A stretch of 37,977 nucleotides of DNA from Chloroflexota bacterium (GTDB taxonomy: Bacteria; Chloroflexota; Anaerolineae; B4-G1; SLSP01), in NCBI GenBank assembly GCA_022707705.1, contig JAKJAC010000008.1, forward strand, positions 11,282 to 49,258, read 5' to 3'. The notes beneath the pieces were generated by a model. That model was not told the DNA's origin and did not search any database. It saw nothing but the letters and a program-made list of their open reading frames with translations. Positions 13,917-15,551 of this stretch are shown here, piece after piece; position 1 is the first letter of the stretch, and each line of letters begins with the position of its first letter. Made by a program: the position numbers and the translations under genes.

Positions 13917-14000
13917 TAGGCTCAGTACGGGATTATCCAACGCGCACCTTTGCTTGCAGCCGACACATCATCACTTGTCATCCCACACAGGAGTTGTGAA

Positions 14001-14897
14001 GTGAATACTGCCAGCCATCATTCTTCCATCGTCTTTGAGGGGGTAATCGGTGTAGGAAAGACCACACTGGCACGGCTGTTACAGCCACGATTTCGAGCCG
14101 CCCTCATTCTTGAAGCTTTTGAGGAGAATCCTTTTCTATCCGATTTCTATAGCGACCGCGCCCGATATGCATTCCAGACGCAGATATTTTTCCTGCTGAG
14201 TCGTTACCGCCAACAGCAGCTGTTGGCCTCGCAACAGCAACAGGGAGCGGTGTTGGCAGATTATCTCTTCGCGAAAGACCGGTTGTTCGCCCATCTCAAT
14301 ATCACCGGCGAGGAACTGGCGATGTACGACCGTCTGTACGAAGCTCTGGCTGAGAATACGCCCAAGCCTGACCTGGTGGTCTATTTGCGCGCCAGTCTCG
14401 ATACGCTGATGGAACGTATCGCCATGCGAGACCGGCCCTATGAGCGGCGCATGGATCGCAGCTATATTGAGGCGCTGCGCCAAGGCTATGAGGGGCTGTT
14501 CAATAACTACACCGAAGCGCCACTACTCATCATTGATACGGACAGCCTGAACTTTGTGCGCGCACCGGAAGATTTGGAATTCATCGAAAGGCGCATTTTC
14601 GCGGCACTGGCGGGGATGCACCAGCCCAGTCTCCTGACCGCAGAAGTAGAGACAGTTCCACACTTCAACTGGAGCCTGCCAATCAAGACCGCTGAAGCAC
14701 AGTGCGAAACCAATTGGCAAGCTCTGGGAGATTTCCTCGCCCTAACACAGGCAGTGGGTGAGGTTGGCGGTGCGCTGACGCAGCGCCCTCCAATTGGTCC
14801 AGAAGGGACATCTGCGGAATTGGAGCAGGCTCTGATGACTACACTGGCTGCATTAACAACGCTGGCACGTCGCGCCGGCATTTCAATGAAAGGATAA
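14001..14897 (+). CDS. Deoxynucleoside kinase with degenerate MazG-like C-terminal domain
   Basis: A 298-residue protein. Residues about 8-215 are a deoxynucleoside kinase (dGK/dAK/dCK family): P-loop GVIGVGKTT, the ADYLFAKDRLFAH segment, and RDRPYERRMD, the arginine lid. It would phosphorylate deoxynucleosides for salvage. The last 60-70 residues read like a MazG-type NTP pyrophosphatase helix pair (LTQAVGEVGGAL, then ELEQALMTTLAALTTLARRAGISM), but the metal-binding EExxE and ExxD acids are mostly gone, so this part is probably structural or regulatory. GTG 14001 is the start because AGGAG lies 7 nt upstream; an in-frame TTG at 13950 has no ribosome site. A second kinase follows 15 nt downstream, recalling the dAK/dGK pairs of Firmicutes. 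Confidence 0.88.
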   Translation: MNTASHHSSIVFEGVIGVGKTTLARLLQPRFRAALILEAFEENPFLSDFYSDRARYAFQTQIFFLLSRYRQQQLLASQQQQGAVLADYLFAKDRLFAHLNITGEELAMYDRLYEALAENTPKPDLVVYLRASLDTLMERIAMRDRPYERRMDRSYIEALRQGYEGLFNNYTEAPLLIIDTDSLNFVRAPEDLEFIERRIFAALAGMHQPSLLTAEVETVPHFNWSLPIKTAEAQCETNWQALGDFLALTQAVGEVGGALTQRPPIGPEGTSAELEQALMTTLAALTTLARRAGISMKG

Positions 14898-14912: not shown

Positions 14913-15551
14913 ATGAAAAAATACTATATCGCTATCGCTGGAAACATCGGTGCAGGAAAGACCACGCTCACCACGCTCTTAAGCCGAAGGCTAGGATGGG
15001 AGCCTTTCCTGGAAGGCGTTGCGGATAACCCTTACCTGGCTGATTTCTATGATAGCATGGAGAAATGGAGTTTCCATTCCCAGGTCTTCTTCCTGGCGCG
15101 CCGGTTGCGACATCATCGCGAATTGCTCGATCGCCCCAACTCGGTCATCCAAGACCGTACGGTCTACGAGGATGCCGAGATTTTCGCGCAGAATCTGTTC
15201 CTGCGCGGCGCGATGCAGCCCCGCGATTTCAACACCTACCGCGACCTGTATGAGGCAGTGACTGCCATCCTGCCGCCGCCGGATCTGGTCATTTACTTAC
15301 GCGCTTCGCTTCCAACGTTGATTGAACGCATTCAACACCGTGATCGCAGCTACGAGCGCCAGATCGGCGCCGATTATGTCGCCCAGCTCAACACGCTTTA
15401 TGAAGCCTGGTTTCAGTCCTTTACGCTGTGCCCGGTCCTGACTGTGCCCGCGGACCGTCTGGATTTTGTTGCCAATGGGGATCATCTGAGCATGATTAGC
15501 GAGCGCATTATGGAGCGGCTACAGGGTAAAGAAGTTGTCACTTTCGATTAA
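14913..15551 (+). CDS. Deoxynucleoside kinase (dGK/dAK type)
   Basis: A 212-residue, standard-length deoxynucleoside kinase. It shows the P-loop AGNIGAGKTT (residues 9-18), the substrate-site IQDRTVYEDAEIFA (DR-T/S motif), and RDRSYERQIGADY, the lid arginines. It transfers the gamma-phosphate of ATP to a deoxynucleoside in salvage. It lies 15 nt after the fused kinase and shares its operon; the two differ clearly in the DR motif region, so they may form a heterodimer or split substrates, as known for paired dAK/dGK. Base preference cannot be read from sequence alone. The ribosome site is weak (CAGGCACC), so coupling to the upstream gene is likely. Confidence 0.93.
   Translation: MKKYYIAIAGNIGAGKTTLTTLLSRRLGWEPFLEGVADNPYLADFYDSMEKWSFHSQVFFLARRLRHHRELLDRPNSVIQDRTVYEDAEIFAQNLFLRGAMQPRDFNTYRDLYEAVTAILPPPDLVIYLRASLPTLIERIQHRDRSYERQIGADYVAQLNTLYEAWFQSFTLCPVLTVPADRLDFVANGDHLSMISERIMERLQGKEVVTFD

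Follow-up and report, generated by a model that had tools for sequence, protein, structure and literature searches.

A deoxynucleoside kinase with a fused, decayed MazG-like tail in a Chloroflexota bacterium

A deoxynucleoside kinase encoded by a Chloroflexota bacterium of the class Anaerolineae continues for 85 residues beyond its kinase domain. Where does this tail come from, and can it still have a function? The stretch of DNA analysed, here called the window, is 37,977 nucleotides long (contig JAKJAC010000008.1). The initial annotation, made from the window's letters, had described the gene as a deoxynucleoside kinase fused to a degenerate MazG-like domain and had proposed that the tail senses nucleotides.

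The kinase pair

The features of the locus are as follows.

13989..13993, + strand: Shine-Dalgarno-like AGGAG before the GTG start, read directly; putative ribosome-binding role
14001..14897, + strand: deoxynucleoside kinase 1, Dgk-type, 298 aa and a stop codon, with a pseudo-MazG tail at its C terminus
14028..14585, + strand: kinase domain, residues 10-195 (Pfam dNK, E 1.2e-37)
14619..14693, + strand: flexible linker at about residues 207-231 (pLDDT falls below 50 across residues 211-236)
14694..14783, + strand: tail helix A, residues 232-261 (first five low-confidence), with metal columns A251 and E254
14814..14876, + strand: tail helix B, residues 272-292, with metal columns A277 and T280
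14913..15551, + strand: deoxynucleoside kinase 2 (Dck-type), 212 aa, without tail (Pfam dNK, E 3.7e-53)

Kinase 1 starts with GTG at 14001 and carries the P-loop GVIGVGKT. An AlphaFold2 model of the full-length protein, built with 59 aligned sequences, has a mean pLDDT of 84.9 and a pTM of 0.66, with block means of 83-97 over residues 11-200. Both the Pfam dNK match and the deoxynucleoside kinase structures found by Foldseek, together with the P-loop, place kinase 1 among the canonical (non-TK1) deoxynucleoside kinases. It is expected to phosphorylate deoxynucleosides, deoxyguanosine in the case of the Dgk type.

The two kinases were typed by comparison with three Bacillota kinase pairs, among which the dgk and dck names are attached only to the Bacillus subtilis pair. 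Kinase 1 matched the first genes of these pairs best (B. subtilis dgk, 37.5% identity over 192 aa, 136 bits; dck, 99 bits). Kinase 2 matched the second genes best, at 37-39% identity and 153-165 bits: the Priestia gene reached 165 bits and B. subtilis dck 162 bits (38.5%), with dgk near behind at 141 bits (38.1%). Because the best matches and the gene order both agree with the Bacillota pairs, the window genes most likely form a salvage pair of the dgk-dck type. The B. subtilis Dgk likewise has a Dck-type kinase directly after it, but it is 207 aa long and ends with the kinase, whereas the window protein adds the 85-residue tail. Kinase 2 also ends with its kinase domain, and the claim that the second kinase lacks the tail holds.

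Fifteen bases separate the kinase 1 stop from the kinase 2 start. The two frames overlap by 4 bases in three relatives (L041, L051 and L059, under an in-house start rule), like the annotated Bacillus dgk and dck. The window's own genome holds a third deoxynucleoside kinase paralogue (G000:C423:46670-47275, open frame of 241 aa), whose match spans kinase 1 residues 10-207 at 36% identity.

Origin of the tail

Taken alone, the window tail has no MazG match in Pfam, where the only hit is FAP42_B3 (E 0.077, below the FAP42_B3 cut-off), and it has no match in NCBIfam. Its origin becomes detectable through relatives. A scan of genome contigs gave at least 546 confirmed relatives, of which the best 80 loci were kept (Chloroflexi/Chloroflexota, Anaerolineae, Thermoflexia and subgroups); start codons of relatives were picked by the in-house rule. 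The 139 kinase 1 sequences gave 115 rows after 24 duplicates were dropped; the search pattern found no kinase 1 in L003, L103, L104 and L142-L145. Three kinds of protein occur: those of about 335-370 aa have a full MazG-like domain, those of about 255-330 aa a shortened one, and those of about 210-226 aa lack it. The Pfam MazG cut-off (22 bits) was passed by four of the ten relatives scanned (L034, 25.6; L041, 22.7; L068, 31.0; L028, 23.1), and the six below it (L054, L059, L020, L008, L012 and L067) had mostly been picked as degenerate. In the A3 alignment, all 20 chosen tails match Pfam MazG at E <= 0.1, and the solved chains nearest to the A3 profile are SSO3215 (1vmg), RS21-C6/dCTP pyrophosphatase 1 and a nucleotide pyrophosphohydrolase.

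An intact-tail HMM was built from the 35 rows that carry all five letters E,E,E,E,D. The window tail scores 10.2 bits against it; when the shuffles of 51 tails are pooled, 1 in 10,200 does as well. As further controls we took 85-residue pieces from other stop-to-stop frames of at least 250 residues, genes or not; 2 of 3,737 such pieces reach 10.2 bits, and one of the two is the true intact MazG tail of L146. Reversed family tails stay at or below 0.9 bits. Single members vary (L093 of the family, 3.0 bits; the non-family L021, -0.6 bits), and the MazG case rests on profiles and not on individual sequences.

A profile of 21 family tails, which excludes the partial L103 and the family member L010 (48-residue tail, 0.4 bits), matches the intact tails with 80.6% probability, E 1.5e-6 and a score of 34.9, against a best score of 11.0 among 200 column shuffles. 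With the family-tail core (residues 237-298) the probability rises to 95.4% (E 1.7e-8), and the whole family-tail alignment reversed gives 0.35%. Seventeen strongly degenerate non-family tails, a set that excludes L010, match the intact tails at 42.4% (E 4.2e-5) and the family tails at 98.4%. The tail at L012:3980-4927 is short and dead, yet scores 48.7 bits against the intact-tail HMM; it is an intermediate that bridges the intact and the dead short forms. By these computed comparisons the window tail is homologous to MazG, at the level of profiles and through its relatives, its single sequence falling below Pfam MazG. The reading as a kinase with a degenerate MazG-like domain is thus borne out by intact fusions in relatives and by controlled profile tests.

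An intact fusion query has a match somewhere in 309 of the 396 genomes of the window's class; at least 88 have a match to residue 330 or further of 352, which means a full-length tail and says nothing about intact metal acids, and at least 7 of these matches have an internal stop. No match spanning 80% of the fusion was found among the phage records with a match (0 of 103) or the 47 such plasmid records. When 151 genomes drawn from the phylum were searched at the strict limit E 1e-40, there were matches in 17, of which 15 belong to the window's class and 2 lie outside it (G408 and G531). One match, that of L146 from the window's class, extends through the MazG tail; those of G408 and G531 cover only the kinase, and their frames stop there. 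The draw is a weak test of absence, since distant kinases fail so strict a limit and decayed tails go unmatched, and the window's own match also ends at query residue 202.

We found no paper on a fusion of a deoxynucleoside kinase with MazG in the open-access literature, and it may be described in subscription journals or domain databases.

Decay of the metal site and history of the fusion

The MazG of Mycobacterium tuberculosis binds metal through Glu119, Glu122, Glu138 and Asp141 (PMC10014863). The spacing of the E..E and E..D pairs suggests which alignment columns correspond to these residues. Intact relatives have E, E, E and D in these columns, and the window has A251, E254, A277 and T280. 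One of four ligands is therefore kept, as the initial annotation had noticed in reporting that most of the metal-binding acids are gone. The computed loss of ligands extends through the family, in which alanine occupies column 1 in 19 of 21 rows and column 3 in 20 of 21. Column 2, which is E254 in the window, is arginine in 10 of 21 rows, and column 4 still holds aspartate in 10 of 21.

The predicted fold is reduced as well. In the AlphaFold2 model the window tail consists of two helices (232-261 and 272-292) beyond a disordered linker, and the tail of the intact relative L051 is modelled as four (232-246, 252-284, 287-320 and 324-337). By alignment, helix A is the counterpart of the MazG EExxE helix and helix B that of the ExxD helix. 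The predicted structure of the window tail thus lacks the four-helix MazG subunit, and alignment and model agree that the first and last MazG helices are missing. A conserved K..N..R end, present in most A3 rows, is gone from the window together with MazG helix 4. The tail helices had been said to follow the MazG pattern, with a structure unrelated to the four-helix fold named as the evidence that would speak against it. The model has no four-helix fold, but its two helices correspond by alignment to the metal-motif helices of MazG, so that it is not an unrelated structure either. Foldseek searches of the PDB with the full-length models of kinase 1 and L051 returned only dNK-type kinases among the 50 matches listed for each, which speaks neither for nor against a MazG fold of the tail.

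The window tail descends from the fold of the MazG-like all-alpha NTP pyrophosphohydrolases (PF03819; RS21-C6/DCTPP1), but it keeps one of their four metal ligands and, in the model, two of their four helices. The name MazG enzyme is therefore not appropriate for it, and hydrolysis of NTP to NMP and PPi appears very unlikely. Three other MazG-family matches occur in the window's own genome, none of them the kinase 1 tail, so that house-cleaning need not depend on the tail.

The same losses weigh on the proposed sensing function, in which the tail would act allosterically by binding a dNTP or NTP uncut and relaying this to the kinase. Its descent from a nucleotide-binding domain and the purifying selection on it in close relatives favour such a role. 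However, the metal ligands, the first helix and the C-terminal helix with its conserved lysine and arginine are gone, and E254, the one ligand kept, is arginine in 10 of 21 family members. In deoxynucleoside kinases of this kind, moreover, dNTPs already inhibit by binding at the kinase active site itself; among the Foldseek matches listed, the Mycoplasma mycoides dAK has been solved with dATP and with dCTP bound. Sensing is poorly supported, and with three of four ligands and MazG helices 1 and 4 missing we depart from the initial annotation here and regard a nucleotide-sensing tail as quite unlikely.

The 115 rows were labelled by the state of the tail. The label intact stands for at least four of the five letters E,E,E,E,D; it applies to 40 of 115 rows, among them L061, which lacks the Asp ligand, and the dead_long label includes L045 and L138, which partly retain the metal site. 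Full-length tails with most metal acids replaced occur at L054:3971-5011 (AATQS), L079:135-1157 (ATRQD) and L059:3983-5002 (RHEHH); judged by these residues, they are MazG domains that are dead but not shortened, and they belong to lineages other than that of the window. Two family genomes, G002 (L091, L105) and G013 (L089, L106), have two diverged copies of the tailed kinase each, which may be paralogues or reflect mixed bins.

A rooted tree was built from 92 rows; three Bacillota rows serve as its outgroup, and two further rows come from outside the class. It excludes the contig-cut L162 and, among rows that share a label, those with 85% identity or more; L156, which is 'k2' under a loose pattern, was treated as kinase 1. 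The window falls inside a clade of 21 rows with dead short tails, which has support 99/93. On the starred branches the minimum number of label changes is 7 for intact, 4 for none, 4 for dead_long and 2 for dead_short. Read from this tree, the metal site has been lost several times, also outside the window's clade. The outgroup branches are long and the basal forks unsettled. The tail-less L157, from outside the class, lies at the base, and the likewise tail-less and outside L156 falls among tailed rows with weak support (96/29). Given these forks and the placement of L156, a single origin of the fusion appears likely but is not proven, and we infer its direction as one gain followed by several losses.

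Selection and possible role of the tail

If the catalytic site is lost, is the tail merely decaying? Selection was estimated as omega (Nei-Gojobori), with residues 241-296 as the tail core. The 10 pairs of the window genus give 0.04-0.09 in the kinase and 0.00-0.18 in the tail. A second group of the family, also with 10 pairs (four g2 rows plus L106 of g6), gives 0.04-0.09 in the kinase and 0.02-0.10 in the tail. Tail values are looser in genus g10 (0.10-0.34, obtained for 8 of 10 pairs) and in the L011-L032 group (0.13-0.45, 24 of 28 pairs; kinase 0.00-0.16), where the tail may be drifting. Many dS values exceed 1 and are saturated, so that few close pairs carry weight. The tail dN in the window genus is up to twice that of the kinase. 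Among the 21 family rows the kinase has a mean pairwise identity of 74%, the tail one of 58% and the linker (residues 207-236) one of 41%, and each position of the tail motif NWQALGDFLAL is conserved in 18-21 of the 21 family tails. The remnant is thus conserved among close relatives, a computed result that suggests that the tail probably still has a job.

These data bear directly on the possibility that the tail is a functionless leftover heading to full loss. Related lineages are tail-less, the state 'none' requiring at least 4 changes on the starred branches, L010 retains just 48 tail residues, and the looseness in g10 and L011-L032 fits such a course. Against this, tail omega is near that of the kinase in the window genus and the second family group, the NWQALGDFLAL positions are conserved, and dead short tails persist throughout a 21-row clade. 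We therefore regard a mere leftover as unlikely, though the least so of the three alternatives considered here.

The neighbouring gene offers another candidate role. The tail could dock kinase 1 onto its Dck-type operon partner and so give a heterodimer or heterotetramer. The 1,000 bases downstream were searched by tblastn in all but 4 of the 115 rows, whose sequence was too short. A partner kinase was found in 33 of the 38 intact rows, in 7 of the 7 dead_long ones and in 24 of the 38 dead_short ones, a total of 64 of 83 tailed rows, compared with 3 of 28 tail-less ones. Gaps of -4 bases between the two kinases are common, and the products of the Lactobacillus dAK/dGK tandem genes form heterodimers. 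The correlation, however, comes from few clades: it amounts to 1 independent pair on the starred branches and 3 on all branches, so that a sign test on the link is uninformative. The link is strong by count but not independent on the tree. In addition, 19 tailed rows have no partner within 1,000 bases downstream, and the three Bacillota kinase pairs have no tail. Docking onto the partner is distinctly unlikely.

Instead, we favour a tail that is probably a co-opted pseudo-MazG. A Dgk-type kinase of this bacterial class would have gained a C-terminal MazG domain, an all-alpha NTP pyrophosphohydrolase. In the window's lineage the metal site of this domain, together with helices 1 and 4, would have disappeared, leaving the two-helix former catalytic core as a hairpin retained by selection. 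The hairpins of two subunits would then pair to form a dimer or higher oligomer, and this assembly would tune substrate affinity, as the terminal extensions of the Giardia dAK do. MazG-fold enzymes work as dimers, and the remnant keeps the two core helices. Most non-TK1 deoxynucleoside kinases are dimers too (PMC11662666). Pairing of the hairpins across subunits would therefore be the most likely mechanism. We give this explanation, taken whole, an even chance. Within it, the role in oligomer assembly and the effect on affinity are drawn by analogy, and a part in assembly or tuning seems likelier than the cutting or sensing of nucleotides.

The precedent is the dAK of Giardia intestinalis (8puu), which belongs to the same kinase family, has terminal extensions and is the best match of kinase 1 by sequence and by fold among solved structures. 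It forms tetramers through its N- and C-terminal extensions, and removal of both raises KM about 50-fold (PMC11662666). Its extensions, unlike the window tail, are short and act by beta-sheet and side-chain contacts, and the paper mentions no MazG origin for them, the word 'MazG' occurring 0 times in it (PMC11662666). The C-terminal contact is a beta-sheet and not made of helices (PMC11662666), which makes the precedent an analogy only. The existence of tail-less clades indicates that the kinase can function without the tail.

A broader scenario, which we advance tentatively and consider somewhat doubtful, starts from the products of the two activities. A kinase (dN to dNMP) and a dNTP pyrophosphohydrolase (dNTP to dNMP) both yield dNMPs, and their joining may have created a regulator of the nucleotide pool. 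The hydrolase would then have lost its active site repeatedly, and several lineages would have kept it as a pseudo-enzyme under constraint, with a part in regulating or assembling the kinase. If true, these proteins would form a natural series from a bifunctional enzyme to a regulated kinase. A tail missed by profile libraries can be identified through its relatives. At the level of sequence, one enzyme family presents a series of intact fusion, dead full-length tail, dead short tail and no tail, which allows a direct test of what a pseudo-enzyme domain does when attached to a nucleotide salvage kinase.
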